From: Muribaculaceae bacterium
Lineage (GTDB): Bacteria; Bacteroidota; Bacteroidia; Bacteroidales; Muribaculaceae
Direction of reading: 5' to 3'
Length of the DNA stretch: 55,745 bases
Assembly (NCBI GenBank): GCA_029051525.1
Contig: JAIDKG010000133.1
Span: forward strand, 1-55,745
The translations under genes were made by a program, and so were the position numbers. Below the pieces are notes generated by a model. It was not told where the DNA came from. It did not search any database and worked only from the letters and a program-made list of their open reading frames with translations. Positions 1,588 through 27,008 of the stretch are shown here, piece after piece; the stretch's first letter is position 1, and each line of letters starts with the position of its first letter.

Positions 1588-1621
1588 CTTTGTCATAAAA
1601 ATCGCGGAAATAAGGTGAGAT

Positions 1622-2782
1622 TCACTCCTTATTGTCATCGGCAGAGATTTGCTTCACGTCGGCTGCAGAGAGTGCTCCTTGCCGACCGGCCTTCGATGCC
1701 TTATGCTCGGCTATCATCGGCTGCAGGAACTGGATCCACACCGCGCAGGATATGAAAGCCAGGAAAGTGAAACCTATCAGAATCAGTGCCTTACGAGGCT
1801 TCGAAGGTTTAACAGGCACCGTCGGGGGTGTAATCACCGCATAAACCGGCATATCCTCCTGCACCTTGGCCTGCGCGCGCTGCACCTGCTGACAGGTGCT
1901 GTTATAGAGATTGAAGGCAAGAGCCGTCTCATTCTCCAGACGCTCACGCTCCACCTGCGCCGAACGGAACACGATACCCTGATTGCGGTCCAGATAATTG
2001 GCCAGATGCTGCTGCGCCTTATAATAGGCTGCCTGAGCCTCATCTTTCAGAGTCTCTGCATACTCCAGATCGTTACGTGCCTTATTGGTACGATAGTTGG
2101 AGACGAATTCTTTCAGACGGTTTACGACCGTATCGGCCAGAATGCCCGACACCAACGGATCCTGCATCGAGACATCGACCGTCACCACAGAGGTCTTTGC
2201 ATCCACACTGGCTGTGATGCGGTCTGTCAGTTCCTTCACCAGATCATTCTCACTCTTGGTGAGCTGGAAATTATCAAGATGATGATTGGGGTCTTCCTCC
2301 TCCTGAGGCAGGAGAAGACCGATCAACTTGAAGGGAGCCGATATGATGACACTCCACCAGGGGGACGACGTCTCCTCCTCCATAAACTGCTGCACTGTCA
2401 TCTTACGGCCATCCTCCTTGGTCTGTACCTCAACATCAAAGAGACTTGTAATAAAGGGTACAGAGCTTACCACATCAGGGTAAAGCATCGGGTAGACCGC
2501 ATCGGCACCACCAGAGAATGTTGCCATTCCGGCCATCGATGCGAGAGCCGCCATGCTGCCGCCGGTGGCCTTATTGTCGTTTACCTCCGGAGCGAGCTTG
2601 ACCGATGTGGTGTATTCGCGCGGAATGCTGAATGCCACTATCAGACCAATCACAGCGCCGCATATGCTCCATTTGATCAGTTTGCGGCGATGATCCCACA
2701 GATTGGAGGCTATTTCGAGAAGGTCGATCGTCCCTTCATCATCATTATTATCGCGGATATCCTTGAGATTCTCTTCTGCCAT
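1622..2782 (-). CDS. Wzz-family polysaccharide chain-length determinant / co-polymerase
   Basis: Inner-membrane protein of the Wzz family, which sets chain length or links polymerisation to export of surface polysaccharide. An acidic cytoplasmic N-terminus precedes a first membrane segment (about 37-53, IKWSICGAVIGLIVAFSIP). A long periplasmic, helix-rich region follows (coiled coil about 220-300). A second membrane segment (about 335-353) is preceded by the typical proline-rich stretch VPVKPSKPRK. There is no C-terminal tyrosine-kinase domain, so it is the short type. It lies between the SLBB exporter (89 bp upstream) and the M23 peptidase. No glycosyltransferase or polymerase is seen nearby, so the polysaccharide is unknown. 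Confidence 0.88.
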   Translation of the reverse strand: MAEENLKDIRDNNDDEGTIDLLEIASNLWDHRRKLIKWSICGAVIGLIVAFSIPREYTTSVKLAPEVNDNKATGGSMAALASMAGMATFSGGADAVYPMLYPDVVSSVPFITSLFDVEVQTKEDGRKMTVQQFMEEETSSPWWSVIISAPFKLIGLLLPQEEEDPNHHLDNFQLTKSENDLVKELTDRITASVDAKTSVVTVDVSMQDPLVSGILADTVVNRLKEFVSNYRTNKARNDLEYAETLKDEAQAAYYKAQQHLANYLDRNQGIVFRSAQVERERLENETALAFNLYNSTCQQVQRAQAKVQEDMPVYAVITPPTVPVKPSKPRKALILIGFTFLAFISCAVWIQFLQPMIAEHKASKAGRQGALSAADVKQISADDNKE

Positions 2783-2871
2783 TGCTATAAGCTATGTGGC
2801 GGTGACATCCGGCGCCGGCCCGCTCGTGACGGCCGACCGGCGCGGATGCCGCCGGGGGTTATGCTATACTA

Positions 2872-13294: not shown

Positions 13295-14620
13295 TCAATC
13301 GATTTCCTCATCAGCCTCATAGCCACCCATCTCGCGGATAGCGTTCTTGAGCATCACATACTGCTGGAAGAGATGGTTTACGGGCACCTCATCCTCAGTG
13401 TAGTCATGCTGCGGGCTCTTGAGGAAGAAGCTCAGGAAGCGCTGTGTGCCATAGCGGCCGGCACGCATGGCGAGGTCGCTCAGAAGCACGAGGTCGAGGC
13501 AGAGGGGCGCTGCCAGGATTGAGTCGCGGCAGAGGAAGTTGATCTTGATCTGCATCGGATAGCCCATCCAGCCGAAGATATCGATGTTGTCCCAGCCCTC
13601 CTTGTTGTCGTTGCGCGGGGGATAGTAGTTGATGCGCACCTTGTGGTAGTACTGAGTATCCTCATCATTGCCGTGGCCATAAAGGTCGGGCTGCTCCTCG
13701 GGCACGAGAATCGACTCCAGTGTGGAGAGCTTCGACACCTCTTTTGTGCGGAAGTTGGCGGGCTCATCGAGCACCAGACCGTCGCGGTTGCCGAGAATAT
13801 TGGTAGAGAACCAGCCGTTCAGACCCAGGCAGCGAGTGCCGATGATCGGAGCGAAGCCCGATTTAACCAGTGTCTGGCCGGTCTTGAAGTCCTTACCTGC
13901 GATAGGCATCTTGGTCTGCTCGGCGAGCTCCCACATTGCCGGGATATCCACTGTGGTGTTGGGGGCGCCCATGATGAAGGGTGCACCCTCCTTGAGAGCT
14001 GCATAGGCATAGCACATAGAGGGAGCGATATTCTCCACATCATTCTCCTTCATGGCCTTCTCGAGATCCTCGAGCTTATAGTGCACAGCCTCGTTGATGG
14101 GCACATAAACCTCGGTCGAAGCAGCCCAGAGCACTACAACGCGCTCCACACCGGCCTCCTCCTTGAACTTGCGGATATCCTCGCGGATCTGCTCCACCAT
14201 CTCCCAGCGGGTCTTGGCATCCTTCACATTGTCGCCGTCGAGGCGCTTTGCATAGTTGCGGTCGAAGGCTGCCTTGAGAGGCTTGATCTTCATGAGCTCA
14301 TCCTTGACGGGCTCGATGTCGCGCTCCTTGAGCACCTCGGCATTGATTGCCGACTCATAGGCATTGGCGGGATATACGTCCCATGCAGCAAACTCAATGT
14401 CGTTAAGATCTGCCAGGGGCACAATATCTTTATATTTGAGGTATTTCTTGTCTGCGCCGCGACCCACACGGATTTTGTCGTACTGAGTCATCGAACCCAC
14501 AGGCTTAGCCAGACCCTTGCGAGTCATCATTACACCTGTGATGAATGTGGTGCTCACTGCACCAAGTCCTACAATCATCACACCCAGCTTGCCGTTGGGT
14601 GCCTTAGCTTTTTCTGCCAT
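13295..14620 (-). CDS. ino1: Myo-inositol-1-phosphate synthase
   Basis: Converts glucose-6-phosphate to inositol-1-phosphate, an NAD-dependent step that supplies inositol for lipids. The Rossmann start VMIVGLGAVSTTFITGV lies at about 13-30. Family segments are WAASTEVYVPINEAVHYKL, GAPNTTVDIPAMWELA, PIAGKDFKTGQTL and FLCRDSILAAPLCLDLV. The start at 14620 (MAEKAKAPNGK) is chosen because the 23 residues of the longer frame are unlike the family. About 441 aa, typical. In gut Bacteroidetes this enzyme feeds the inositol-lipid pathway, and the other pathway genes lie at 23.7-26.9 kb here. Confidence 0.93.
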   Translation of the reverse strand: MAEKAKAPNGKLGVMIVGLGAVSTTFITGVMMTRKGLAKPVGSMTQYDKIRVGRGADKKYLKYKDIVPLADLNDIEFAAWDVYPANAYESAINAEVLKERDIEPVKDELMKIKPLKAAFDRNYAKRLDGDNVKDAKTRWEMVEQIREDIRKFKEEAGVERVVVLWAASTEVYVPINEAVHYKLEDLEKAMKENDVENIAPSMCYAYAALKEGAPFIMGAPNTTVDIPAMWELAEQTKMPIAGKDFKTGQTLVKSGFAPIIGTRCLGLNGWFSTNILGNRDGLVLDEPANFRTKEVSKLSTLESILVPEEQPDLYGHGNDEDTQYYHKVRINYYPPRNDNKEGWDNIDIFGWMGYPMQIKINFLCRDSILAAPLCLDLVLLSDLAMRAGRYGTQRFLSFFLKSPQHDYTEDEVPVNHLFQQYVMLKNAIREMGGYEADEEID

Positions 14621-14715
14621 ATAAGTAATTGTATCTTTGTGTTGGTTAATTTCTTGGAGTCGGTCATTCTTCCCGCATCGCTGCCACAATATTGGGCAAT
14701 GCGGGAAATCGGGTG

Positions 14716-14745
14716 TAAAAGTACTGCCATTTTTGCAATCTGCAA
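14716..14745 (-). promoter_or_regulatory. Possible ino1 promoter
   Basis: Minus-strand TTG (complement of 14743-14745), 19-bp spacer, TACTTTTA (complement of 14716-14723). The last base of the -7 element departs from TAnnTTTG, so this is a weaker match. Its position 96 bp before the start and after a terminator fits. Confidence 0.4.
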
Positions 14746-14796
14746 AAAATTATTACTAAAATTTGAACCCTTCAAGTGTTAATTAATGTCAATAAA

Positions 14797-14830
14797 AGGC
14801 GTATTTAACCAATTTAGGTTAAATACGCCT
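14797..14830 (-). terminator. Intrinsic terminator after HAD gene
   Basis: 14-bp perfect stem (aggcgtatttaacc, 14797-14810, with 14817-14830) and 6-nt loop. On the minus strand it is followed by ttttattg. It separates the upstream operon ending in the HAD gene from ino1. Confidence 0.75.
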
Positions 14831-14977
14831 GCATTTAGTCTTGAAATGTGAAAATTTCTAAAACAAGCTCCCGCGCCCGGAGTATGCATTTTGAGCCCCC
14901 GGCGCGGCATTATGCCAGAGCTCTTACATCTTGGGGCTTACATCCTGATACCGCGCGCAAGGGTGCGCTCCTCATGC

Positions 14978-15739
14978 CTACGGTCGCCCCTCGGCCAGAG
15001 GATCGCCAATCAGCTCCGAGATCGAGCCTATTATATCGGAGTATTCCTGAAGGTCCTCCTTTTCGGTCCAACCCTTACCTTTGAGCCATACAGCACGGCA
15101 ACCGGCCTCCATAGCCGGCACGATATCCTTGGTATAGCTATCACCCACCACGAGCACCTCGCCCGGGTGGTGACCCACGGCGCGCACACCTAAAGTCCAG
15201 ATGCGCGGATCCGGTTTGCGCACACCCACCACCGCGCTCTCCACGATATCACGGAAATACTTCCTCACATCGTAGGCACGCAGCACCGCTTCCACATTGC
15301 CATAGAAATTCGACACCAGCACCAGCGGATAGTGTGCCGCCAGCGCCGCCAGCACCGGGCGAGCCTCCTCGATGCGGCTGCGCGCCTGCGCATCGCAATA
15401 GTCGGCTATCTTCTGTGCCTTCTCCTCGATTTCCGAGGCCGGGAATCCGGCATGCTCCGACAGCCAGCCAAGCTCTATGCGCATCTTCTTGAGCAGAAGC
15501 ATATGAAAATCATCATCGGGCAGGATGTGGCGCACCTTGGCAAGCTCGCGCTCCGCATGCACATATGCATCGCGAAACACCTCCTTCGAGATGCCCCACT
15601 TCTGCGGCACGCCGGCATCCTGCCAGCCGCGCCATATCACTTCACTCCAATGGTCGCCACCCGAATCGAGGGTGCCGCCATAGTCGAAGAGCACTCCGCG
15701 TATGCCACGGAATCGCTCTGCCATTCTGCTGTCGGTCAT
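14978..15739 (-). CDS. HAD-superfamily hydrolase with altered motif I
   Basis: Haloacid-dehalogenase fold with a helical C1 cap. Motif I reads FDYGGTLDS (about 18-26): the nucleophile Asp is present but the usual second, acid/base Asp is Gly. Motif II is LVSNFYGN (about 140), motif III the Lys in VRKPDPRIW, and motif IV VVGDSYTKDIVPA. This FDxGGTL form is found in a known HAD subgroup, so the protein may still act as a phosphatase or may be a weak or altered enzyme. The substrate is unknown. It follows the amylase gene by 34 bp and ends at a terminator. Confidence 0.85.
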   Translation of the reverse strand: MTDSRMAERFRGIRGVLFDYGGTLDSGGDHWSEVIWRGWQDAGVPQKWGISKEVFRDAYVHAERELAKVRHILPDDDFHMLLLKKMRIELGWLSEHAGFPASEIEEKAQKIADYCDAQARSRIEEARPVLAALAAHYPLVLVSNFYGNVEAVLRAYDVRKYFRDIVESAVVGVRKPDPRIWTLGVRAVGHHPGEVLVVGDSYTKDIVPAMEAGCRAVWLKGKGWTEKEDLQEYSDIIGSISELIGDPLAEGRP

Positions 15740-15773
15740 AGGTGTGTGTGTGTTTCAGGGTTCAATTAATACT

Positions 15774-17894
15774 TCAGCGCACAAGCACTTTCTCTGCCTT
15801 GCCACCGGCCACACGGATATAAACTCCGCCCACCTGCGGCTCAGCCACCGGCTCACCCATCAGACTGAACCAGCGGGGCACCTCATCGAGAGCCGCCACC
15901 GATGTCACTCCTGTGGTAGTGTCGGAAATGCGGAGCACATTATCATTAAGATCAAGCGTCACGCTATAGGTCGAGGGAGCTACCTGCCAGCTGAAGGCCG
16001 ACGAGGCATTGACACCGGCAGCAAATTTCACCACCCGCGCCACTTCATTCGGACTCACAGGCGCATCGGCAGTGGCAGCTCCATAGCGGTCGGAGGAATT
16101 GACCACATTCCAATCGGCTCCCTTGGCTGTAACAAACGAGAAATAGGAATAGTTGTCGGTAGCCGAAGCCACCAGCACCACCTTATTCCAGGTATACACA
16201 CCATTCTCCACCTTATCGGCAGCCTGCGGAGCAGAAGTTGACCATGCGGCACCATCCAGCGAGCCGATCAGATACATCTCGGCCGGGAAATTACCTCCAT
16301 GTCCCCCTCCCTGATAGTCACTGATATTCCCCTGAGCGCCTGTGCGGGTATACACATAATCAGGTTTCGGCGCAAAGTCCTCAGTCTTGCTCGCATCGCC
16401 ATCGCCGGCATTGAAGAGCACACCCGTAGTGCCGGCCGGCACTGTATAGCTCCAGATATCGCCATCATAAACCTTCATGGCCACGCCCGGATATTCAGGA
16501 CTCGAGACCGGCCAATAGTAGATATAAGGTGTGGCCCAACCGGTGCCGCTGTTGTCGAAATATAAAGTCATCTCAAGGGTGGGGTCGATCGGATCATCGG
16601 GCTCTATCGGATCCACAGGGCCAGAGCCGTTGCTCTTCACCCAGATGCAATAGTCATTGCCGAAAGCGCGGATATCATCCGAGGCATAGCCCTCGGGAGA
16701 TATCATCTCCGAGCCGATCTTCACCACCATTGTGCCATACTTACCGGTCACCTCGGCCATATACACATTGCGGCCCGTGCGGAGCACCTTAACCGCACTC
16801 TCATTATGCACACCGGCCTCCAGACGGGCGGCAATCATCGGTTTGATGGCCTCCTTATTGTCGAGCCAATGCTGCAGAAACACGCAGGGTGTGCCCGGAC
16901 AGCTCAACATAAAGGCATTGGCCGCAAGCACATTGCCCGTAAACTTACTGCCATCGCGATAGGTGTCGTGATTATCCACAAACGTCACTGCATAACGCGG
17001 ATAGCCGAAATGAATCATGCCGGCCGGCTGGTCGGTAGTACCATTGGCCTTCCACACGAGTTTTGAAAGGTCGCCGGTGGAAAATGCCTCATTGAGTGCA
17101 TATTTGAAGGGAAAGTCGAATGCAGCCGATGTGCGGCCGGTAGCCTCAATCCATCCCTTGACGGCATCATACTGGCCATCCCAATATTCACCCACACTGT
17201 AGGTGGGATTGGAGTAATTGTTGTAGATTTTATTGTACTCGCCGCCGTAGCCCTTCACCATATCATAGCGGAAGCCTACATAGCCGAGTTCGTCGAGCAG
17301 GAATTTGCAATAGTTCTTGCAGTTGTTCTGCACATTGGCATTAGTGTGGTCCAGATCGCGGCAACCGTCGAAGTTATCACCGGTGTCGTAGCCGCCGGTG
17401 GGTTTCGGCTGCCCTGCGGCATATGCCATCTCATCATTGCAGCATATGCCGTCAAGACCGATGTTCCAGGTCCGGCCATTCCACTCCTCGGCGGGGAAAT
17501 CATACCAATTGGTCACACCATTACGGTGATTGATCACCACATCGGCGATAAATCCGGTACCCTTTTCGCGGAAAGTGGATATCATACTCCGCAGCTCAGC
17601 CTCACTGCCGAACGATGAATTATGATTAGTAAACCAATATTGCGGCATATACCCCATATTCTTGTAGGCTCCGCAATAACCGGAGTTGGGAATCCAGATG
17701 AGGTTGAAGTAGTCGGAGAGTTCTTCGGCCTGGGCTTCGAGATTGGTCCACTTGGAGTCGGCAAATGAATCCCAATAGAATCCCTGAAGCATCACCCCCT
17801 CATGCTGCGAGGGCCAGCCTTCGGCACCGCGAGCCGGAGATACGGCCGAGAGAGCGCATGCCGCCAGCATGGTTGTGAGATAAGTAGATTTCAT
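15774..17894 (-). CDS. Secreted alpha-amylase (GH13) with starch-binding-like modules and T9SS-type tail
   Basis: Signal peptide (about 1-23), then a GH13 TIM barrel with all four conserved regions: DVVINHR (118-124), GFRYDMVKGY (207-216, nucleophile Asp211), GEYW (acid Glu236) and FVDNHD (305-310). The KGY ending of region II points to the plant/archaeal type of alpha-amylase. After the barrel come a CBM26-like module (about 442-525, TLYFDNSGTGWATPYIYYW) and a SusE/F-like module (about 540-655, EMYLIGSLDGAAWS). The C-terminus (PQVGGVYIRVAGGKAEKVLVR pattern) resembles the type IX secretion sorting tail, so surface display is likely. It is 706 aa. The gene 76 bp upstream encodes the odd CDP-alcohol phosphotransferase. 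Confidence 0.9.
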   Translation of the reverse strand: MKSTYLTTMLAACALSAVSPARGAEGWPSQHEGVMLQGFYWDSFADSKWTNLEAQAEELSDYFNLIWIPNSGYCGAYKNMGYMPQYWFTNHNSSFGSEAELRSMISTFREKGTGFIADVVINHRNGVTNWYDFPAEEWNGRTWNIGLDGICCNDEMAYAAGQPKPTGGYDTGDNFDGCRDLDHTNANVQNNCKNYCKFLLDELGYVGFRYDMVKGYGGEYNKIYNNYSNPTYSVGEYWDGQYDAVKGWIEATGRTSAAFDFPFKYALNEAFSTGDLSKLVWKANGTTDQPAGMIHFGYPRYAVTFVDNHDTYRDGSKFTGNVLAANAFMLSCPGTPCVFLQHWLDNKEAIKPMIAARLEAGVHNESAVKVLRTGRNVYMAEVTGKYGTMVVKIGSEMISPEGYASDDIRAFGNDYCIWVKSNGSGPVDPIEPDDPIDPTLEMTLYFDNSGTGWATPYIYYWPVSSPEYPGVAMKVYDGDIWSYTVPAGTTGVLFNAGDGDASKTEDFAPKPDYVYTRTGAQGNISDYQGGGHGGNFPAEMYLIGSLDGAAWSTSAPQAADKVENGVYTWNKVVLVASATDNYSYFSFVTAKGADWNVVNSSDRYGAATADAPVSPNEVARVVKFAAGVNASSAFSWQVAPSTYSVTLDLNDNVLRISDTTTGVTSVAALDEVPRWFSLMGEPVAEPQVGGVYIRVAGGKAEKVLVR

Positions 17895-17957
17895 GATTCT
17901 AAGTAGTTAAGTGTTAGAATATAAGGTTAATGAGTTTTTTTTTGCATTTGGCCGCTC

Positions 17958-17971
17958 TTAGAGCGCGTTCC
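17958..17971. repeat. 14-mer motif after CDP-alcohol phosphotransferase gene
   Basis: Exact TTAGAGCGCGTTCC on the plus strand, touching the stop codon (17971-17973) of the minus-strand gene. The preceding gccgctc pairs with gagcg to give a short stem. Confidence 0.7.
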
Positions 17972-18909
17972 TACTGTCTGAGCCATTGCTGCGCCTTGTG
18001 GCATATGCGCTCATGGCGCACCATCATATACACCAGCACCACATTGAGCACCACCAGCTCAAAGGCGAAGTAGAGCCACGGCATGCGGAATATGAGTATC
18101 GCCGCAAAGAGGGCGAAGCAGCGCGTATTGAAAGAGAGGATATTTGTGTATTTCATCAGAGGCTTGCTCAGAGCCCGGAATCGCTCCCGGAAATCCACCG
18201 GAATCGGACCATTGCCATAGTGCTCGGCAAGAGCCGCGCGAAGTCGCTGCATCGAAGGGGTGCGCTTCTCCTGCCCTACCGTATAATTGGTATAGAACAT
18301 CAGCACCAGCTTCTGCCAGAAATCCCGGCGCCACGACAACGCATGAAATTTATCCCACAGATACGAGGCCCGCTCCAGCTCGCTCCCATCCTCACCCTTC
18401 ACGAAGTAAAGATGAAATTGCCTGTAATAATCGGCCATAGCCGCCTGGATGGCGTGAAATACACCGGTCACTGAGGCGAGCACCCATATCACCCACGAGT
18501 GAGCCATGAAGAAATCGCTCGTCACATTCTCACGCAGACAGATGGCAAGATAGATGCAGAAAAACCATATGTCGCCGCTCAGGCCATCGAGGATACGCCC
18601 AATGCGGGAATACTGATGAGTCATGCGCGCCAACTGCCCATCGGCCGAGTCGAAACTATCGGCCCACATCAGCAGCACCGCCCCCACCAGATTAATCCAT
18701 ATATTATTGAAATAGAACGCTGCGCCGGCTCCGATGCCAAGTATGATCGAAGCTATGGTGATTGCATTGGGGGTCACACCCAACTTAGCCGCCAGCTTGG
18801 CCCAGAAAAATCCGATCGGGCGATAGAATATGAGGTCGAAGGTCTCTTCCGTGTCGCTCGACTTGAGCGACGACTTATATTCACGCTTCAGCTCGCTCCA
18901 TCTGCTCAT
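17971..18909 (-). CDS. CDP-alcohol phosphotransferase with shifted active-site motif
   Basis: Membrane enzyme of the CDP-alcohol phosphatidyltransferase family. The motif DSADGQLAR (87-95), then G104 and D108, fits D-x2-DG-x2-AR-x8-G-x3-D. The fourth Asp should be residue 112, but that is Gly, with Asp at 113 (DGLSGD). Membrane segments lie around 30-45, 50-68, 72-86, 112-126, 138-152, 248-265 and 270-290. It is 312 aa, longer than typical PgsA or PssA, mostly through a polar insert near 165-235. Its start overlaps the ATP-grasp stop by 4 bp (ATGA), and a nucleotidyltransferase lies just upstream. That suggests it uses a headgroup activated by the cassette itself. Donor and acceptor are unknown. 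Confidence 0.85.
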   Translation of the reverse strand: MSRWSELKREYKSSLKSSDTEETFDLIFYRPIGFFWAKLAAKLGVTPNAITIASIILGIGAGAAFYFNNIWINLVGAVLLMWADSFDSADGQLARMTHQYSRIGRILDGLSGDIWFFCIYLAICLRENVTSDFFMAHSWVIWVLASVTGVFHAIQAAMADYYRQFHLYFVKGEDGSELERASYLWDKFHALSWRRDFWQKLVLMFYTNYTVGQEKRTPSMQRLRAALAEHYGNGPIPVDFRERFRALSKPLMKYTNILSFNTRCFALFAAILIFRMPWLYFAFELVVLNVVLVYMMVRHERICHKAQQWLRQ

Positions 18910-19844
18910 TTATCACCCCCTTTCCTGCTACGGTGGTTCATAGTACGGTCGGCCGGGCGTATATTCTCCTCACCGCGCATACGCCACCAATCCCTGATTG
19001 CACCAAGGATGCTCTTGGCTATATATGGAGCCGCCTCCATGCGGCAGGGAGCAAAGCTGGGCCAGTCGTTGAAGTCAATAATCTGATAGTGCCCCTGCTC
19101 ATCCACAATACAGTCGCCACCATAGATCATCACACCGGTCACTGCAGCAGCCTTCTCGCAGTCCTGCTTGAGCATCTTCTCATCGAATGCAATATGCTCC
19201 GGCATACCATTCACCAGCTCATCGCTGAATTTTGAATGACCCTGCTCCAGTGGATAAAACCAATAGAAGAATGACCCATCGGCCAGACCATAGAATTTCA
19301 CAAGGTCGCCCACGAGATGGCGATTGATCACCGCCCGCTTTATGCCACGGTAGAAAAACTCATGCAGTATCTCCTGCGCCTCCTGCGCATGACGGCAATA
19401 ATGCACATCCTCTTTATGCATGGCATGAAACTCGCCGCGCTTTATCCAGCAACGGTCGATTCCGGCCTGCTCCAGCAATGGCCGCACATTGGTATTGGTG
19501 TCGACCATCAGTGAGTCGGGGTAAGGCACACCATTGGCCACCAGCAGGCGGGTCATCTTCTCGCGGGTGCAGTTCTCGATGGCAAACCCGGAATTAATCA
19601 CCAGTCGTCCCTCCTCCTCGAAGCGCTGCAGCTTCTCGAGCGATGAGGTCTGGCGGCACATATTGAGTATCACATCCTCAGTCACATCCGACTGCTGGAA
19701 CTGTTCCTCACTGTAAATCTTCACCTCGCAGCCACGGCGGCGCAACTGCTCCACCGTGGCATTCAGAATAGCGGCATCATTGCCTATATGATTGGGTGAA
19801 TATATCCCGGCTCTTGAGATGGCCGCGATCTGTATTCTTCGCAT
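18906..19844 (-). CDS. ATP-grasp enzyme of unknown substrate
   Basis: I place the start at 19844 (MRRIQIAAISRAGIYSPNHI), which leaves 53 bp after the nucleotidyltransferase. The longer frame adds 21 atypical residues. ATP-grasp features: CWIKRGEFHAM with Lys near 135, RHLVGDLVKFYG near 176, and the metal-binding end GGDCIVDEQGHYQIIDFNDW (about 242-261). The IIDFNDWPSF segment recalls both the inositol-phosphate kinase (ITPK) type VIDxNxFPG and the RimK-type ligases, so kinase or carboxylate ligase are both possible. No signal peptide or membrane segment, so cytoplasmic. Coupled by ATGA to the downstream CDP-alcohol phosphotransferase, which makes a shared pathway likely. Confidence 0.75.
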   Translation of the reverse strand: MRRIQIAAISRAGIYSPNHIGNDAAILNATVEQLRRRGCEVKIYSEEQFQQSDVTEDVILNMCRQTSSLEKLQRFEEEGRLVINSGFAIENCTREKMTRLLVANGVPYPDSLMVDTNTNVRPLLEQAGIDRCWIKRGEFHAMHKEDVHYCRHAQEAQEILHEFFYRGIKRAVINRHLVGDLVKFYGLADGSFFYWFYPLEQGHSKFSDELVNGMPEHIAFDEKMLKQDCEKAAAVTGVMIYGGDCIVDEQGHYQIIDFNDWPSFAPCRMEAAPYIAKSILGAIRDWWRMRGEENIRPADRTMNHRSRKGGDK

Positions 19845-19897
19845 GATAAGTAGTAAAAGTTTGTCAGGTGTTGGCAAGCATCTCTTGATGCGCCCAT

Positions 19898-20623
19898 TCA
19901 ATCGCAACAGCTTTCCCGCAGGAATTGATTGGCCACCTCGATATCAGATGCATGATCCACATCAAGAATCTTCCCCATCGGCCAGGCATAAACTCCCAGC
20001 CCCTCCTCCACCAGCGCGCGCTGATAATTACGCATCCGGCTCAGCCCCCGGGCTATGCAGGAATCGAGCACATCCACACCCTTGTCGGAGAGGCCATAGA
20101 TACCCCCCGACACATAGCGCACACCCTCCTCATGACTGTCCAGAAAGGCTGCGACACGCTCCGTGGCCGGATCGGTGGCCACCCAGAGGGGTTTCTCATC
20201 CTCCACATATTCAGTGACTGCCATCAGAGCATCCACACTCTGCGGCGCATTCTCCCATGCCTCCACATAGCGGCGGAAATCCTCCGGACGGAAGATAGTA
20301 TCCACCGTAGTGGTGATAAACCGGCCATGACCACGCAGATGGGTGGAAATCTCCTTGAATGTATGCATCGAAGAGGGTGTCACCCTCTCGATGCGCACCA
20401 GCTCCACACCCTCGCGGGGCTTGAAATTCTCTATAAACCGGCTAAGTTCCGGCATAGAGCCATTGGTACATATCACAATGCGGCGCGCACCGCAATCCTC
20501 CATGATGCGCAGCAATCGCTCCAGCATCGGCCTACCGGCGATTTCCACCAGAGGCTTCGGGAGCGCCACTCCCTCGCCGGCGAGGCGCGAACCTTCGCCG
20601 GCGGCTATGATTCCGAAGTTCAT
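19898..20623 (-). CDS. Nucleotidyltransferase (sugar/alcohol-phosphate NTP transferase type)
   Basis: GT-A-like nucleotidyltransferase of 241 aa. The signature IIAAGEGSRL (5-14) and KPLVEIAGRPML (23-34) bind the nucleotide. ITTTVDTIF (about 103-111) carries the metal-binding Asp108, and KILDVDHASDIEVANQFL (about 217-234) ends the domain. Relatives include MobA-like, LicC-type CTP:phosphocholine and inositol-1-phosphate cytidylyltransferases. The neighbouring CDP-alcohol phosphotransferase makes a CTP-using activity the most attractive guess, but base specificity cannot be read from sequence. Its start overlaps the pdxA stop by 4 bp (ATGA). Confidence 0.85.
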   Translation of the reverse strand: MNFGIIAAGEGSRLAGEGVALPKPLVEIAGRPMLERLLRIMEDCGARRIVICTNGSMPELSRFIENFKPREGVELVRIERVTPSSMHTFKEISTHLRGHGRFITTTVDTIFRPEDFRRYVEAWENAPQSVDALMAVTEYVEDEKPLWVATDPATERVAAFLDSHEEGVRYVSGGIYGLSDKGVDVLDSCIARGLSRMRNYQRALVEEGLGVYAWPMGKILDVDHASDIEVANQFLRESCCD

Positions 20624-21669
20624 TGTTTCTGGGGGGCTATCTTTAGGGGATTGGCCGAAGCTTCATCGTAGCGCTCGCGGTTGCGGTATATATCGATGGC
20701 GCGGTAGATGGCCTGTGTCATCGAGGTAGGGTCGGCTGTCATGCTGCCGGCTATGTCGAAGGCGGTGCCATGATCGGGCGATGTGCGCACATATCCCAGC
20801 CCGGCTGTAAAATTCACACCTTCAGCGCCGGCCACAGTCTTGAAGGGGGCCAGACCCTGGTCATGGTACATGGCCAGCACCACATCAAATTCCCGCCACA
20901 GCCCGGCACCGAAGAATCCATCGGCAGCATACGGTCCGAATGCCAGCAGACCCTCTTCCTGAAGGCGAGCCACCGCCGGGATTATCTCTCGCGCCTCCTC
21001 ATCGCCGAGCAGTCCGCCATCGCCGGCATGCGGATTGAGAGCCAGCACTGCGATGCGCGGACGCTCACAGGCAAAATCGCGACGCAATGTGCTGTCAAGA
21101 CGCTTCACGGTATCTACAATCACATCCTCGCGCACACCCTCACTCACCTTCGCCACCGGCAGATGAATAGTGAGCAATGCCACTCGCATCTCATCGTTGA
21201 AGAGTATCATACAGGCCTTCTCCCCCTCCTCGCCCAGACGGGCTTCGAGATATTCGGTATGACCCGGAAAATCAAACTCCTCGCTCTGCACCGCGCTCTT
21301 GCAGAGCGGCGCAGTGACCAGCACATCGATATCACCATCGGTCAGAGCCTTGACGGCTGCCTCGAGCGACAGGCGCGCGGCCTCACCACTCTCCGGAGTG
21401 GGCTGCCCATAGGTAGGCTCGATCGGAGCATTGCCGATATTCATCAGATTTATGCGCCCATCCACGGCATCGGCCGCCGTAGGGATATGCTGTATCTTCA
21501 CATTATCGCCGGTGATGGCCTGAAGGGTGGTCTGCACCAGACGCCGGTTGGCGAATATCACCGGTGTATATAAGTCGGTCACCCCCTCGGGGATGATTGA
21601 TTTCAGTACTACCTCGAGGCCTACGCCATTGGTATCACCCTGCGTGAGGCCTACTCTAAGTTTTTCCAT
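20620..21669 (-). CDS. pdxA: 4-hydroxythreonine-4-phosphate dehydrogenase
   Basis: NAD-dependent step of pyridoxal-5'-phosphate synthesis by the DXP-dependent route. Characteristic segments: LRVGLTQGDTNGVGLEVVLK (4-23), VTAPLCKSAVQ (about 119), FPGHTEYLEARLG (about 135), LNPHAGDGGLLGDEE with the metal-binding His (about 206) and MYHDQGLAPFKTV (about 264). 349 aa, normal. Eight bp after rlmN and coupled by ATGA to the nucleotidyltransferase gene. No functional link to the cassette is evident from the sequence. Confidence 0.95.
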   Translation of the reverse strand: MEKLRVGLTQGDTNGVGLEVVLKSIIPEGVTDLYTPVIFANRRLVQTTLQAITGDNVKIQHIPTAADAVDGRINLMNIGNAPIEPTYGQPTPESGEAARLSLEAAVKALTDGDIDVLVTAPLCKSAVQSEEFDFPGHTEYLEARLGEEGEKACMILFNDEMRVALLTIHLPVAKVSEGVREDVIVDTVKRLDSTLRRDFACERPRIAVLALNPHAGDGGLLGDEEAREIIPAVARLQEEGLLAFGPYAADGFFGAGLWREFDVVLAMYHDQGLAPFKTVAGAEGVNFTAGLGYVRTSPDHGTAFDIAGSMTADPTSMTQAIYRAIDIYRNRERYDEASANPLKIAPQKQ

Positions 21670-21677
21670 GGTCAGTA

Positions 21678-22721
21678 TCAGTGTTTGGTCTTATTTGCCA
21701 GCATGCCGCATGCCGCCATTATATCCTCGCCGCGCGAGGTGCGGATGGTGGCAGTGATGCCATGCTGGTTGAGCACATTGCGAAACATTATCATTCTCTC
21801 CTCCGTGCAAGGCTTCAGATCTATCCCCTCGATGGCATGATAGCGGATCAGGTTCACCCGGCAATCGAGATTGCCGATGAGGCGGATCAGCTGATTGGCA
21901 TGAGCTATGTCGTCGTTGACACCCTTCCACATGATATACTCAAGCGAGAGGCGGCGCTGATGCGAGAAGTCGTAGCCCGAAAGAAGCTGCATCACGCTCT
22001 GCAGCGGGAAGGCCTTCTGCGCCGGCATCATCGAGGCGCGCTCGCGCGAATCGGCAGTATGCACGCTGATGGCCACATGCACCTGAGTCTTCTCCAACAG
22101 ATCTTTCAGCTCCGGGAGCTTCCCCACCGTAGATACAGTGATGCGCTTCGGGCTCCATGCCAATCCCCAGGGGGCGGTCAGAATCTCGATCACACGGCTC
22201 ACGGCTCCGAAATTGTCGAGCGGCTCACCCATACCCATAAACACCACATTGGTCAGCGGTGCCATCGGTGCCTCTCCCTTGGCCGGCACCGGAGGGATGC
22301 TGAGTATCTGATTGATAATCTCGGCGGCGGTAAGTTGCGACTTGAAGCCCATCTTGCCGGTAGCGCAAAAATAGCAATTCATCTTGCAGCCCGACTGCGA
22401 GCTCACGCAGAGAGTGGCGCGATCCTTGTCGGGGATATATACCGACTCCACCTGGCGCCCACCGGCCACGGGGAAGAGATACTTCACCGTGCCGTCCACA
22501 CTCTTCTGCGAGGCGGTGGGGGCGATACGCCCCACACAATATTGCTCCTCGAGGAGCATCTTGTTCTTTTTCGACAGATTGGCCATCTCTTCAAATCCGG
22601 TGGCACCTTTCTGGTAAATCCACTGGGCAATCTGGCGCCCCACGAAGCGGGGCATGCCGAGACTCACGGCCACATCCTGAAGTTCTTTCTCAGTAAGACC
22701 TATAAGGGGTATCTTGTTCAT
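21678..22721 (-). CDS. rlmN: 23S rRNA / tRNA adenine-C2 methyltransferase
   Basis: Radical-SAM enzyme that methylates A2503 of 23S rRNA and A37 of some tRNAs. The iron-sulfur motif is SGCKMNCYFCATGKMGF (about 110-126), preceded by RATLCVSSQ. The catalytic C-terminal Cys lies in AACGMLANKT at the end, and NVVFMGMGEPLDN (about 157) binds AdoMet. 347 aa, normal. The C-terminus TIRTSRGEDIMAACG is diagnostic for RlmN. Confidence 0.96.
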   Translation of the reverse strand: MNKIPLIGLTEKELQDVAVSLGMPRFVGRQIAQWIYQKGATGFEEMANLSKKNKMLLEEQYCVGRIAPTASQKSVDGTVKYLFPVAGGRQVESVYIPDKDRATLCVSSQSGCKMNCYFCATGKMGFKSQLTAAEIINQILSIPPVPAKGEAPMAPLTNVVFMGMGEPLDNFGAVSRVIEILTAPWGLAWSPKRITVSTVGKLPELKDLLEKTQVHVAISVHTADSRERASMMPAQKAFPLQSVMQLLSGYDFSHQRRLSLEYIMWKGVNDDIAHANQLIRLIGNLDCRVNLIRYHAIEGIDLKPCTEERMIMFRNVLNQHGITATIRTSRGEDIMAACGMLANKTKH

Positions 22722-22776: not shown

Positions 22777-23649
22777 TTATTTCCCCTGCGGGAAGGGGAG
22801 GGTGTGAAGCTCATAGGTCTTCTCTCGCAGATACCTTCCCAGCGCTACATAATCCTTGCCGAATCGGGCCTGCTCCTCGGGCGAAATCGGTTGGCCCACG
22901 CTGATATGCATCGGCTTCCCTTTCTTGGAGAAGAGCTCACGAGGCAGCAGCGCCGAGCGCAGCGGCCAGCAGGCATGCCCGAGGAAATTGAAAAACCATC
23001 GGTTGGTGCCATGAAAATAGATTGGTATCACCGGCACCTTAGCCTTGCCTATCAGCTGAAGGACAGTGGGCTGCCACTCGCGGTCCACCAGAAAACCCTT
23101 CCTGTCGGTCTTGCTCATGGCTCCGGCCGGGAAGAATCCCACCGGCTTACCCTCCTTGAGCATACGCATAGCCTCCCGGATACCATTGACCGAGACTTTA
23201 CGCTTCTCCGGGTCGTCGGTCTGCCAGGCATCGACTGCTATGAAATTGGGCTTCATCGCTGTGATCTTGCCCAATATCATATTCACCATCACCTTATATT
23301 CCGGCCGATAGCGGGTCACGAGATTGATCAGCGCTATCCCATCGAGCGCCCCGAAGGGGTGGTTGCTCACAGTGATGAATGCACCATCACCCATACGGGC
23401 CAGCACATCCTCATTATCGACCACCAGAGGAGTCTTAAACTCATCCTCAATCAGATGGCGGGCAAACTCCGGCCCGGGGGTGGAGCACCATGTGGAGTGC
23501 ACTCGATTCACCTCGTCGATACGCAGCAGATGCAATGCCCGCTCCACGAGCCGGCGGTGCCCGGCCAGCTTCGGCACAGCCTGCACCACATCATCATAGC
23601 CAATCACTTCCGGACGGACCACCAGACCGGGATATTTCTCATTTTCCAT
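22777..23649 (-). CDS. Lysophospholipid-type acyltransferase (putative-hemolysin / GlsA-OlsA-like)
   Basis: Glycerolipid acyltransferase fold. The catalytic site reads SNHPFGALDG (95-104), the form found in the OlsA/GlsA and COG3176-like groups rather than the plain NHx4D of PlsC. GFFPAGAMSKTDR (about 170-182) is the second conserved block and VPVIPIYFHGTNRWF (about 210) the third. No membrane segment is obvious, so peripheral. It could acylate lysophosphatidic acid or an amino-acid lipid. GlsA partners with GlsB for glycine lipids in Bacteroides, but no GlsB-like N-acyltransferase is in this window. It lies 63 bp after the AUR1-like gene, so a lipid role is well supported. Confidence 0.8.
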   Translation of the reverse strand: MENEKYPGLVVRPEVIGYDDVVQAVPKLAGHRRLVERALHLLRIDEVNRVHSTWCSTPGPEFARHLIEDEFKTPLVVDNEDVLARMGDGAFITVSNHPFGALDGIALINLVTRYRPEYKVMVNMILGKITAMKPNFIAVDAWQTDDPEKRKVSVNGIREAMRMLKEGKPVGFFPAGAMSKTDRKGFLVDREWQPTVLQLIGKAKVPVIPIYFHGTNRWFFNFLGHACWPLRSALLPRELFSKKGKPMHISVGQPISPEEQARFGKDYVALGRYLREKTYELHTLPFPQGK

Positions 23650-23712: not shown

Positions 23713-24681
23713 TCACTTGATATATGCCACATATCTCTCCATAAAGCGGCGGAAGCCACCTATGCGCATCAGCACCCCCTCGAAGAGCAGCACCGCCACA
23801 ATCGAGCAGCCTATGCCACCGAGCACATCGAGGATATAGTGATGCGAAGTATACACGGCCGTAAACCAAATGCCCAGCGTCACCACTCCAAGCAGCACCC
23901 TCCATGCAATCGGGCTGCGAGAGCGGCAGGCATAGATAAAGGCCACAAACGTATAAGCCGAATGCAGCGACGGCATGGCGGCAAATACATTGGCATTGCG
24001 CGCATAGAGCGCATTGAAGATTCCGAGACCCGTCATACGGTCGAACGCACCCAAACCGGCCACCTCGCCCGATGTGCCGGGCACAGCCTCCATGCCATGC
24101 ATCGCAACATACCATGGCGGAGCCGCCGGATGCACATAATAAAGACCGAATCCTATCAGATTCACCAGCAGGAAGGCCATGGCGAAATGCAGATACGGGC
24201 CGCGGCGCCCACTGAAATAGAGCCAAAGTCCATAGATAATGGGGAGAGGCACCCAGCAGAGGTAGAATATTCCGGCCATGAAATCCATGGCCGCTCCGGT
24301 GTGGTGCGCCCAGAATTCATTGGGTGTGAGCCGCACCCCTTCGGCCACATTGATGCCGAAGAGGAGTTTCTCGGTATTGTAGAGCCCGGCCACATCCACC
24401 GGATTCACCTCATAGTTGGGAAGGAGATTCATCCAGTCGTAGGATATGCCAAACACTATGAAGGGCAATATCGCCACCGTGAGCCTGCGCGAGGCGGGGA
24501 AAGCGAAATACATCCCCGCTATCAGCAGTGCCAGCACCACGTGCTCGGGGCGGAAGCCGATAAAGAGCACCGTGACCGTAAACCAGAGCGCCAGCGCCAC
24601 GAGGCACCACAACGTCTCGCGGAGCGATGCCCTCTGCCAGCCACCCGATGGTGAAGATGCTGTTATATCATTTCGTTGCAT
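23713..24681 (-). CDS. PAP2-family inositol phosphoceramide synthase-like protein (AUR1-like)
   Basis: Polytopic membrane protein of 322 aa with a PAP2/LPT active site: HPAAPPWY (184-191), AAMPSLHSAY (234-243, His240) and SHHYILDVLGG (279-289, His and Asp285). About six membrane helices are visible (25-43, 47-62, 68-83, 134-155, 165-184, 236-252, 258-275). This pattern fits the AUR1/IPC synthase group, which moves phosphoinositol from phosphatidylinositol to ceramide. The adjacent CDP-alcohol phosphotransferase, GtrA and PgpA-like genes match the inositol-lipid gene set known in Bacteroides thetaiotaomicron. The assignment rests on both motifs and context. A generic PAP2 phosphatase is the alternative. 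Confidence 0.8.
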   Translation of the reverse strand: MQRNDITASSPSGGWQRASLRETLWCLVALALWFTVTVLFIGFRPEHVVLALLIAGMYFAFPASRRLTVAILPFIVFGISYDWMNLLPNYEVNPVDVAGLYNTEKLLFGINVAEGVRLTPNEFWAHHTGAAMDFMAGIFYLCWVPLPIIYGLWLYFSGRRGPYLHFAMAFLLVNLIGFGLYYVHPAAPPWYVAMHGMEAVPGTSGEVAGLGAFDRMTGLGIFNALYARNANVFAAMPSLHSAYTFVAFIYACRSRSPIAWRVLLGVVTLGIWFTAVYTSHHYILDVLGGIGCSIVAVLLFEGVLMRIGGFRRFMERYVAYIK

Positions 24682-24825: not shown

Positions 24826-25551
24826 TTACTTGCCGCTCTTCTGCAGCTGCCTACGGCTGTATTCTATACGGGCGGCAGCCGTAAGATTGGCGAATATAGC
24901 TATCACCGCCATGCCGCCGAAGAGCACCCAATCGGCCCATTCCACTCCATAGCCTCCCAAGATACCGGCTCCAAGTGTGCACACGGCTGTGACCACTACC
25001 CTCTCCGGGCGCTGCATGAATCCGATTTTGCATTCCAGACCGAGTCCCTCGGCTCGGGCACGCACATAGCTCACCATCAGCGACCCTATCACAGCAAGAT
25101 AAGTCACCAGCGCACCCCAGATATTTCCGGCCATAAGAAAAAAGTAGGACACGCCTCCTAAAGTGAGGAGCTCGCAATAGCGGTCGAGCACCGAGTCATA
25201 CATTGCCCCGAACGTGGAGGTCATATTGCCCAATCGGGCCACCTGACCATCGAGCATATCAAAAAGAGAGAACCCTATGATCAGAAAACCGGCAAGTGTA
25301 AGCTTGCCATAGGGGATGATTCCGGTCTGCCCGGCCTCGTAGCCGGCCATCACCATTACAACCGCTGCAGCCAGATTACCCAACATACCGATAGTAGTCA
25401 CCATATTCGGGGTCACACCGCAGCGTATCATCAATCGCACAAATGGATTAATCACTACATAAATCCCCTGCTGCAACGCATCGCGCATACGTTTGGCAGT
25501 CTGCTTGATTCCGGCAGAAGTCTCAGCGTCCATATTCTCTATATCTGTCAT
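24826..25551 (-). CDS. CDP-alcohol phosphotransferase, probable phosphatidylinositol-phosphate synthase
   Basis: The active-site motif is complete: DMLDGQVAR (98-106), G115, D119 and D123. The protein is 241 aa, with membrane helices around 30-45, 50-70, 82-97, 127-143, 148-165, 185-203 and 207-222. By context it should join CDP-diacylglycerol and inositol-1-phosphate to give phosphatidylinositol-phosphate, which the PgpA-like enzyme upstream could dephosphorylate. Phosphatidylglycerophosphate synthase is the main alternative, since no other pgsA is in the window. Its leader contains tandem repeats (25574-25634). Confidence 0.8.
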   Translation of the reverse strand: MTDIENMDAETSAGIKQTAKRMRDALQQGIYVVINPFVRLMIRCGVTPNMVTTIGMLGNLAAAVVMVMAGYEAGQTGIIPYGKLTLAGFLIIGFSLFDMLDGQVARLGNMTSTFGAMYDSVLDRYCELLTLGGVSYFFLMAGNIWGALVTYLAVIGSLMVSYVRARAEGLGLECKIGFMQRPERVVVTAVCTLGAGILGGYGVEWADWVLFGGMAVIAIFANLTAAARIEYSRRQLQKSGK

Positions 25552-25702: not shown

Positions 25703-26344
25703 TCACTCACTCTTCTCCTCTTCACTGTCGCCATCCGATTTCCCCTTGCCGGCGAAATGACCGAAGGTCACAGCATCCACAAATCTTACTGCATAGGGAT
25801 CAAATCCTGTGGGGCGATACACAAAATATCTCTGCAACAGGAAATTCCAGAACCACGACACCATCAGCGACACCGCCAGTCGGGCAGCCGCGAAGTAACC
25901 GTTGGGCTTGAATCCCAGATGTTCCAGCCAGGGCATATGGCAGAGCACCCGATAGAGCAGCTCGGTGCCATACGCATTGAGCAGCAGACTGCCACACCAC
26001 ACCAGAGCATACTTCACCACCACCGCACGCCAGGGAGTGCCCTTGGCATGGAAAGTGAATTTATAGTTGATGATACAGTTGAGCACTCCTCCTGCCACCG
26101 CACCAAGCGCCGTGGAGATAAATGGAGTGAGATGCGCCCAGGCGAAGAGCAGAAAACTCAAGCCCATATCCATCCATGAGGCGGCCTGACTCGACACGGC
26201 CGAGCGGAGAAATGTGAATCCGATGGCGTTGCTGTGTATCAGTTTCTCGGTGACCTGCGAATTCTTCACCTTGTCGCCAATCGCCTTAAGGCGCTCCACC
26301 GCCTCCTGGGCTGCTCTATCTTTGTTATTTTCTGTTTCTGCCAT
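25703..26344 (-). CDS. GtrA-family membrane protein
   Basis: Four-helix GtrA-like protein: segments about 55-72, 77-93, 107-128 and 145-165. The family block GGVLNCIINYKFTFHAKG (about 86-103) is the typical NYxxxRxxTF-like site. A 45-residue N-terminal extension and a charged C-terminal tail (KSDGDSEEEKSE) are extra. GtrA proteins are thought to flip polyprenyl-linked sugars, and one is also present in the Bacteroides inositol-lipid locus. It lies 15 bp after the pgpA-like gene. Its substrate here is unknown. Confidence 0.82.
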   Translation of the reverse strand: MAETENNKDRAAQEAVERLKAIGDKVKNSQVTEKLIHSNAIGFTFLRSAVSSQAASWMDMGLSFLLFAWAHLTPFISTALGAVAGGVLNCIINYKFTFHAKGTPWRAVVVKYALVWCGSLLLNAYGTELLYRVLCHMPWLEHLGFKPNGYFAAARLAVSLMVSWFWNFLLQRYFVYRPTGFDPYAVRFVDAVTFGHFAGKGKSDGDSEEEKSE

Positions 26345-26359
26345 ACAAACCGGTCGTTG

Positions 26360-26878
26360 TCAGGGTAAAATATATAGATTGATGGCCACGAGAATCACCA
26401 CGCTGTAGACTCCGGCCAGGATATCATCGGCCATCATGCCATAACCGCCCGACAGGCGCTCCATCGAGCGGATGCCAAGTGGCTTATAGATATCAAAGAA
26501 TCGGAAGAGTGCCAACGATACCGGAATCATCCACCACGGCTCCACCGCCACTCCGTAGGAGAGCGGCAGGAGCGATATCCACTGGCCTACCGTCTCATCG
26601 GCACAGGCCGCCACCGGGTCTTTACCCCAGTATTTCTCCGATTCTGTGCTGGCCCAGGTGCCCGCCACAGCATATACGACGGCGGCTCCGGCTGTTACCC
26701 AGAATATGATTTGTGGCTCGGCCCATAAATACAATGGTAGCCAAAGCACTATGGCAAGCAACGCTCCCCACGTGCCGGGAGCCACCGGAAGGAATCCCAC
26801 TCCGAAAGATGTGGCCAGCAGTTTGGGCACCAACGGGAATGGCTTGCCTGCTATATTTATCGGTTTACGCGATTTCAT
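26360..26878 (-). CDS. PgpA-family phosphatase, probable PIP (or PGP) phosphatase
   Basis: PgpA fold of 172 aa: LLATSFGVGFLPVAPGTWGAL (about 19-39), KDPVAACADETVGQWIS (about 88-104, with the acidic metal ligands), FRFFDIYKPLGIRSMERL (about 128-145) and GGYGMMADDILAGVYS (about 147-162). E. coli PgpA removes phosphate from phosphatidylglycerophosphate. In gut Bacteroidetes a PgpA homologue in the inositol-lipid locus dephosphorylates phosphatidylinositol-phosphate. Being first in a cluster with PIP-synthase and AUR1-like genes favours the second role. Confidence 0.85.
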   Translation of the reverse strand: MKSRKPINIAGKPFPLVPKLLATSFGVGFLPVAPGTWGALLAIVLWLPLYLWAEPQIIFWVTAGAAVVYAVAGTWASTESEKYWGKDPVAACADETVGQWISLLPLSYGVAVEPWWMIPVSLALFRFFDIYKPLGIRSMERLSGGYGMMADDILAGVYSVVILVAINLYILP

Positions 26879-26966: not shown

Positions 26967-27008
26967 TAAAAAAACTGAGGTCCGACAGGATTGCTCCTGC
27001 CGAACCTC
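26967..27008 (-). terminator. Intrinsic terminator after ppiD-like gene
   Basis: Imperfect 14-bp stem (26977-26990 with 26995-27008, GCAA-type loop). On the minus strand it is followed by agttttttt. It separates the ppiD-like transcript from the lipid operon. Confidence 0.8.

Follow-up and report, generated by a model that had tools for sequence, protein, structure and literature searches.

Layout of the cluster

The window analyzed here is the whole 55,745-nt stretch of contig JAIDKG010000133.1 from a Muribaculaceae bacterium (assembly GCA_029051525.1), and the system in question is a cluster of genes on its minus strand. As originally predicted, three neighboring open reading frames (ORFs) encode a nucleotidyltransferase (NT; 19898-20623, 241 aa; Pfam NTP_transf_3, E = 1.6e-15), an ATP-grasp protein without a Pfam model (18906-19844, 312 aa, with ATG at 19844; a longer TTG-start ORF is also listed), and a CDP-alcohol phosphotransferase (17971-18909, 312 aa; PF01066 [CDP-OH_P_transf], E = 5.1e-11). 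The predicted ATGA overlap was also found, since the ATP-grasp stop and the phosphotransferase start share 4 nt. The pdxA and NT genes overlap by 4 nt as well, and a 53-nt gap separates the NT and ATP-grasp genes.

Next downstream of this three-gene cassette are genes for an amylase-like protein, a HAD-like protein (14978-15739; PF00702; motif D-Y-G-G-T-L-D), and myo-inositol-1-phosphate synthase (MIPS; 13295-14620; PF07994, E = 1.2e-101), whose likely start is the ATG at 14620 (the ORF list gives a TTG at 14689). Upstream are pdxA, an rlmN-like gene, and a cluster of inositol-lipid genes like that of Bacteroides thetaiotaomicron (BT), which encodes an acyltransferase, a phosphoinositol dihydroceramide (PI-DHC) synthase-like protein, a PIP synthase-like protein, GtrA, and PgpA. 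The NT, ATP-grasp, phosphotransferase, HAD, MIPS, pdxA, and rlmN-like genes and the BT-like cluster are all on the minus strand. The HAD and MIPS genes are part of the same conserved cluster as the three genes, and the span first predicted stops short of both.

Taken together, the three genes, HAD, and MIPS form one conserved cluster that is tied to inositol synthesis and in which the NT active-site residues are kept. It is probably used by gut Bacteroidota to make inositol-containing membrane lipids. The NT is annotated here as a probable CTP:inositol-phosphate cytidylyltransferase (a maker of CDP-inositol), the ATP-grasp protein as a candidate inositol (phosphate) kinase, and the phosphotransferase as a candidate CDP-inositol:diacylglycerol/dihydroceramide phosphotransferase.

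Synteny and domain fusions

With the ATP-grasp protein as the query, 69 named loci were found, and matches were obtained in 55 of 101 related genomes. Among 99 ATP-grasp loci, a set that is not independent (it includes the window, and several of L071 to L099 are the same genes as named loci), 92 contained NT, 98 the phosphotransferase, and 91 HAD. In an order-level sample of 247 Bacteroidales genomes (90% completeness requested; the window's own genome included), the ATP-grasp gene was carried by 33, and in 31 of these it was flanked by NT and the phosphotransferase on the same strand within 1.5 kb, the exceptions being G189 and G296. A syntenic block had been set beforehand as the test, and the relatives were not scattered. 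This conserved synteny supports the predicted common pathway of the CDP-headgroup type, with a logic unlike that of the window's CDP-diacylglycerol route. The order MIPS-NT-ATP-grasp-phosphotransferase-HAD was seen in many Parabacteroides and Tannerellaceae loci. In addition, a flippase-like membrane protein (LPG_synthase_TM) was matched in at least 14 of the 33 order-level loci, and its gene lies between those for the phosphotransferase and HAD in several loci, for example, in Bacteroides graminisolvens.

Fusions were surveyed in stop-to-stop frames of 200 loci. NT-ATP-grasp fusions were found in six genomes (L008, L049, L050, L064, G083, and G165), and G225 (L130) carries an 820-aa NT-ATP-grasp-phosphotransferase fusion followed by a flippase-like protein, HAD, and a divergent MIPS, so that ATP-grasp is fused to NT in seven genomes altogether. 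The phosphotransferase is fused to HAD in L018 and L064, and the flippase-like protein to HAD in L060. On the ATP-grasp tree, the NT-fusion label of the seven genomes requires five changes, three of them forced by well-supported branches; some of the fused rows lie on long, uncertain branches. One frame seemed to join PdxA to ATP-grasp, but it runs through a stretch of N and was therefore discarded. An NT-phosphotransferase fusion in G098 (L148), in which the first third of the phosphotransferase and a large part of HAD are missing, was treated as a remnant and not counted as a pathway fusion. No ATP-grasp or MIPS match was found in that genome, and the locus appears to be either a cluster in decay or an assembly error.

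A number of loci depart from this arrangement and weigh against the reading proposed here. NT is missing in seven of the 99 loci; in five of these, the ATP-grasp gene lies at most 0.6 kb from the end of the stretch, and L024 and L061 have no NT despite 2.2 and 3.4 kb of upstream sequence. The phosphotransferase is missing in one of the 99 (at a contig end), and G703, from a phylum-level sample of 392 genomes, has NT and ATP-grasp with no phosphotransferase match in the stretch. Conversely, ATP-grasp is missing in 7 of the 39 phosphotransferase-positive order-level genomes (two weak matches, one remnant, and four with paralogues). In G296, ATP-grasp and NT are 2.6 kb apart on one contig, the phosphotransferase is on another, and no MIPS was found. 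In G189, the ATP-grasp gene stands beside GtrA, PIP synthase, PI-DHC synthase, and MIPS genes, and no NT, phosphotransferase, or HAD was found; therefore, ATP-grasp is not tied to CDP-inositol, and an enzyme acting on CDP-inositol only is disfavored.

Eight genomes of one genus (L154 to L160 and L134) have rearranged clusters, with NT away from its usual position. Behind ATP-grasp, five of them carry PgpA, GtrA, PIP synthase, PI-DHC synthase, and acyltransferase genes, and three carry only GtrA and the acyltransferase. The phosphotransferase follows in six of the eight (the L154 stretch ends earlier, and L160 shows none). A diverged NT is present in seven, near MIPS/trmD, and by coordinates lies at most about 2.5 kb from MIPS in six of the seven (three loci were inspected). 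The ATP-grasp metal residues are changed in these eight genomes (D257 is replaced by N or S, and N259 by D), and the cluster HAD was not found in them, with generic matches near 1e-16 in three. Both observations speak against the proposed pathway.

Paralogous CDP-alcohol phosphotransferases (43 to 46% identity) with no NT or ATP-grasp in the same stretch were seen in L138 to L142, L151, and L152. The L141 paralogue has genes for a CTP_transf_like cytidylyltransferase and a flippase-like protein in its vicinity, which suggests another CDP-alcohol pathway.

Link to inositol synthesis

MIPS (PF07994) was present in 31 of the 33 ATP-grasp carriers, compared with 12 of the 214 other genomes (Fisher p = 2.9e-27, uncorrected for phylogeny). 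G225 is PF07994 negative, and its divergent MIPS behind the cluster (PF01658, E = 1.1e-19) brings the count to 32 of 33. PI-DHC synthase was called by keeping matches below 1e-50 (18 of 25 genomes). Of the 43 PF07994 genomes, 25 had ATP-grasp only, 11 had PI-DHC synthase only, 6 (the window's genome among them) had both, and 1 had neither; one or the other was thus present in 42. In the window's genome, MIPS (PF07994) was a single match.

The cluster also occurs where MIPS was not found. Among the named loci, 29 had no MIPS match in the stretch, and the genomes of ten were tested; in seven of these, whose completeness is not stated, there was no genome-wide PF01658 match. All seven keep NT, ATP-grasp, the phosphotransferase, and HAD; among them are Parabacteroides faecalis, P. 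chinchillae, P. distasonis NM39_I3, and Tannerella forsythia OH1426. PI-DHC synthase was matched in P. faecalis and not in the other six, T. forsythia included. T. forsythia is cited as a maker of inositol sphingolipids (PMC9246714; the strain may differ from the genome searched), and the title of a reference in that paper names incorporation of exogenous myo-inositol. For B. thetaiotaomicron, which has the BT-like cluster, exogenous inositol is described as entering lipids in very minor amounts only (PMC9246714).

The retention of the cassette by these carriers suggests that they use inositol from outside the cell and need a kinase to do so. Imported inositol would have to be phosphorylated because NT chemistry requires a phosphorylated substrate, and ATP-grasp is the kinase candidate because it is the only cassette enzyme whose fold implies use of ATP. 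Against this, carriers with MIPS, which already supplies inositol phosphate, retain ATP-grasp as well, and a pure salvage kinase would not be needed there.

Nucleotidyltransferase, phosphotransferase, and HAD

Family alignments (A1 to A4) held 47, 48, 47, and 37 relatives plus the window sequence, taken from loci L002 to L070 with near-copies removed; one further row was left out of A1, two out of A2, and ten out of A4. The NT profile aligned at full length, over 218 positions, with 4JD0, the inositol-1-phosphate cytidylyltransferase of Thermotoga maritima, in which R16, K26, and D112 are critical (PMC12275187). These residues are matched by R13, K23, and D108 of NT. Against the bifunctional-enzyme model NF041135, NT reached 35.7 bits with a cut-off of 580. 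From its sequence, NT is probably an inositol-phosphate cytidylyltransferase. However, sugar-phosphate nucleotidyltransferases score as well as or above 4JD0 against the NT profile, and the substrate is therefore not fixed by sequence alone.

In CDP-alcohol phosphotransferases, the last Asp of the signature motif is the proposed base. The window enzyme, which scored 43.6 bits against PF01066 (cut-off, 22), carries DSADGQLARx8GRILDGLSGD, which aligns without gaps with AF2299 and CEPT1; the pattern given for this class is Dx2DGx2AR...Gx3Dx3D (PMC9246714). Among 145 distinct sequences, with paralogues counted, the last Asp (+4) is Gly in 136 and Ser in 7 (2 were unreadable), which speaks against the pathway proposed here. 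The family profile ranked AF2299 first, then CEPT1 and cholinephosphotransferase 1 (1.9e-5 and 5.8e-5), and then PIP synthase (0.003) and DIPPS. This CEPT1-like ranking is not decisive, because a single-sequence search placed PIP synthase above the cholinephosphotransferase, and Foldseek with the predicted model (pLDDT 95) gave the order AF2299, PIP synthase, IPCT-DIPPS, and CEPT1.

HAD enzymes act on phosphomonoesters as a rule, and the phosphatase motif of the family is DxDxT with both Asp residues. In 119 of 122 sequences (3 were unreadable), the cluster HAD reads D-[YF]-G-[GA]-T, with Gly in place of the second Asp. A role as the phosphatase for the MIPS product is disfavored, since HAD is retained in the MIPS-less carriers, a point that also fits poorly with the reading proposed here.

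ATP-grasp enzyme

The ATP-grasp protein of the window had no Pfam match at E ≤ 0.001. Across 48 family members, the window's included, the best Pfam match was 0.0026, and matches were scattered over 13 families. Weak profile matches were obtained with inositol 1,3,4-trisphosphate 5/6-kinase (ITPK; 5.1e-5, 1z2n, the best in the PDB), ArgX (0.0034), and PsnB (0.016). All 50 Foldseek matches listed for the predicted model (pLDDT 87) are proteins that we take from their names to be ATP-grasp enzymes, and the TM-score with ArgX was 0.66 to 0.68 by query length. The weak profile matches and the model together support the predicted ATP-grasp fold.

The putative metal site reads D244...D257-x-N259, residues that we presume to bind metal; D-F-N aligned with D-I-N of ITPK1 and with E-L-N of ArgX and PsnB, and an ITPK-type D...D-x-N ligand pattern is present. 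Each of the residues K135, D146, D244, D257, N259, and D260 is shared by 160 or more of 168 rows, a count that includes near-copies. The enzyme departs from the RimK type, having D-F-N for E-x-N and 26.7 bits against the TIGR00768 cut-off of 143.4. Nevertheless, several results count against a kinase of the ITPK kind. Foldseek put carboxylate ligases (ArgX, PsnB, Ddl, and RimK) first, and ITPK was not among the 50 matches listed; at the sequence level, ITPK is matched only locally, over 41 residues (domain i-Evalue, 0.18), and none of the 48 members had a Pfam ITPK match at E ≤ 0.1. A function as inositol or inositol phosphate kinase is thus the least certain step of the pathway, and we would put it slightly below an even chance.

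Clusters outside the class

In the phylum-level sample, ATP-grasp was carried by 15 of the 392 genomes, ten of them outside the class. Eight of the ten, from families f128 and f146 (L190 to L196 and L200), were examined at length (G558 is not among them). These have the order NT, one or two ATP-grasps (in tandem in L190, L191, and L200), phosphotransferase, flippase-like protein, HAD, and MIPS. Seven of the eight contain MlaE-MlaF-MlaD genes inside the cluster, and seven contain a class-III aminotransferase and a Gfo/Idh/MocA dehydrogenase, for which the best NCBIfam match (two were scanned) was inositol 2-dehydrogenase, far under the cut-off. A ninth genome, G462, has only NT, ATP-grasp, phosphotransferase, and HAD, in 9.2 kb. 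As a lead only, the additional genes suggest lipid export and possibly amino-inositol headgroups.

Proposed pathway and alternatives

Based on these results, a CDP-inositol (Kennedy-type) route is proposed. Inositol would be either made by MIPS, as inositol 3-phosphate, or taken up from the surroundings. Phosphorylation of inositol or of an inositol phosphate by ATP-grasp would yield the NT substrate, and NT would form CDP-inositol from CTP and the inositol phosphate. The membrane phosphotransferase would then transfer phosphoinositol from CDP-inositol to diacylglycerol and/or dihydroceramide with release of CMP. HAD may act at a later or side step and is not placed. In the window's genome, this route would run alongside the CDP-diacylglycerol route of the BT-like cluster, with the single MIPS found common to both. 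Inositol is the most likely headgroup, and a CDP-inositol lipid route as such is considered likely; for the whole model, kinase included and with every catalytic step inferred, our confidence stands midway between belief and doubt.

Heaver et al. proposed a three-enzyme scheme in which NT makes CDP-inositol, the phosphotransferase makes PI-DAG, and HAD converts PI-DAG to PI-DHC, functions that are unconfirmed there (PMC9246714); ATP-grasp would then be an accessory. The HAD-phosphotransferase fusions of L018 and L064, as reported for P. veroralis in the same paper, agree with this scheme, and direct transfer to dihydroceramide, absent from it, is the proposal of the present work. An accessory role fits poorly with the presence of NT and the phosphotransferase beside the ATP-grasp gene in 31 of the 33 order-level carriers and with the seven genomes in which ATP-grasp and NT are fused. 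The HAD step is also difficult to reconcile with a family that normally acts on phosphomonoesters and with a member that lacks the second Asp, and the scheme is unlikely to hold in this form. Alternatively, ATP-grasp could be a ligase that adds an amino acid or another acid to the inositol headgroup, giving an acylated or aminoacylated inositol lipid. Carboxylate ligases are its best structural matches, and the class-III aminotransferase and IolG-like dehydrogenase of seven of the eight outside-class loci, in two families, could make an amine. L193, however, has ATP-grasp without either gene, the Bacteroidales loci examined (many of them short) showed no relative of either, and the enzyme has D-x-N in place of E-L-N and scores far under the RimK-family cut-off. 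This function is rather unlikely.

The product could also be something other than a lipid, that is, a soluble solute of the di-myo-inositol-phosphate type or capsule inositol. NT and the phosphotransferase do resemble the two halves of IPCT-DIPPS (4mnd), and inositol was found in minor amounts in the BT capsule (PMC9246714). The LPG_synthase_TM and MlaE/F/D genes in the clusters nevertheless favor a lipid, and the phosphotransferase profile favors CEPT1 over DIPPS, although the Foldseek order is the opposite. Moreover, B. vulgatus, which has this type of cluster, and P. veroralis are described as making PI-DHC without homologues of BT_1522, BT_1523, and BT_1525 (PMC9246714). A nonlipid product is therefore very improbable. 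Finally, a chance grouping of three unrelated neighbors is contradicted by synteny, co-occurrence with MIPS, and domain fusions; nothing was found in its favor, and it was rejected as practically inconceivable.

The CDP-inositol lipid route can be carried further into a broader hypothesis, which we regard as speculative and rather unlikely in full. ATP-grasp would be the founding member of a new prokaryotic inositol (phosphate) kinase family feeding a CDP-inositol route to both sphingolipids and phospholipids, and Bacteroidota without MIPS could then draw on inositol from the host or the diet. In another class of the phylum, the cluster extended by the IolG-like dehydrogenase, the class-III aminotransferase, and an Mla-type transporter would make and export aminocyclitol-headed lipids.

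Other features of the window

The window belongs to a draft genome of 2.49 Mb in 140 contigs (86.9% complete), and its nearest named relatives are metagenome-assembled genomes labeled Porphyromonadaceae or Muribaculaceae. An amylase-like secreted protein (15774-17894, minus strand) is inserted between the phosphotransferase and HAD genes. Apart from the window's own locus, only L002, L003 (partial), and L071 showed a relative of it, with many of the 99 loci short-flanked, and it is probably a passenger in the cluster.

On the same strand, pdxA (20620-21669; PF04166) is the upstream neighbor in many loci, though not in all. The next gene (21678-22721), located between both inositol clusters, served as a synteny marker; we take it to be rlmN-like from recognition of its sequence. 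An acyltransferase gene (22777-23649; PF19576) adjoins the BT-like cluster, which comprises a BT_1522-like PI-DHC synthase (23713-24681), a BT_1523-like PIP synthase (24826-25551; also PF01066), a GtrA/DPMS-type membrane protein (25703-26344; PF04138), and a PgpA-like phosphatase that is a candidate PIP phosphatase (26360-26878; PF04608), all on the minus strand. The first two scored under the strict cut-offs (NF052609, 463.7 bits against 480; NF052561, 241.7 bits against 350).

Terminator-like hairpins of 14 pairs followed by a T run lie on the minus strand at 26977-27008, ahead of the entire cluster, and at 14797-14830, in the interval from HAD to MIPS. Both are consensus matches only, and such matches were near shuffle level for terminators (14 versus 10.4 expected) and promoters (16 versus 13.2 expected). 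Elsewhere, at 640-5283, Pfam matches indicated an M23 peptidase, a Wzz-like chain-length protein, and a polysaccharide export protein.

Comparison with known systems

CpgD, the phosphoglycerate cytidylyltransferase of Caulobacter, is of a related cytidylyltransferase type and feeds a sphingolipid headgroup (PMC12275187). It differs in substrate, and the terms ATP-grasp and CDP-alcohol are absent from the main text of that paper. RimK/LysX/ArgX and PsnB ligases share the overall ATP-grasp fold, whereas the window enzyme has D-x-N for E-L-N and lies far under the family cut-offs. ITPK gave the best PDB profile match (1z2n, local) with an aligned D...D-x-N in ITPK1, but no Pfam ITPK match was found among the 48 family members, and ITPK was outside the 50 structural matches listed. 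The IPCT/DIPPS pathway of hyperthermophiles, which makes di-myo-inositol phosphate and CDP-inositol lipids, likewise combines a CTP:inositol-phosphate cytidylyltransferase with a CDP-alcohol phosphotransferase, and 4jd0, 2xme, and 4mnd were all matched. Compared with it, similarity is low, ATP-grasp and HAD are added, and the phosphotransferase motif is altered.

The closest counterpart is the putative alternative inositol-lipid cluster that Heaver et al. described in 2022 (PMC9246714), which consists of an NTP transferase, a CDP-alcohol phosphotransferase, and HAD near MIPS; a 2023 review restates this description (PMC10191378). The genes at 13295-20623 of the window have this content. The original prediction had called the pathway undescribed; this does not hold for these genes, which were published in 2022, and it stands for ATP-grasp, a term absent from the main text of PMC9246714, where the gene may appear under another name. 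Our literature search found no paper on an ATP-grasp enzyme in such a role. The B. vulgatus locus tags given in that paper, BVU_RS13095, 13105, and 13115, leave one-gene gaps that, judging from tag spacing, may correspond to ATP-grasp and the flippase-like gene as arranged in B. graminisolvens. The published cluster is described as an alternative to the BT-like one, whereas both coexist in the window and in 6 of the 43 MIPS genomes, the window's included, so that one does not simply replace the other.

Capsule expression, resistance to antimicrobial peptides, and fitness within the host are all influenced by the inositol lipids that gut Bacteroidota make (PMC9246714), and the second route to these lipids is so far unconfirmed. 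Most of the cluster was thus already proposed in 2022, and ATP-grasp is an overlooked regular component that may be a new kind of inositol kinase and is added here for testing. Beyond that proposal, the coexisting clusters, the MIPS-less carriers, the motif changes in the phosphotransferase and HAD, and the extended clusters outside the class are also new. Two coexisting routes are perhaps not simply interchangeable, the altered phosphotransferase motif and the extended clusters hint at unexplored chemistry, and the MIPS-less carriers offer a natural test of lipid building from environmental inositol.

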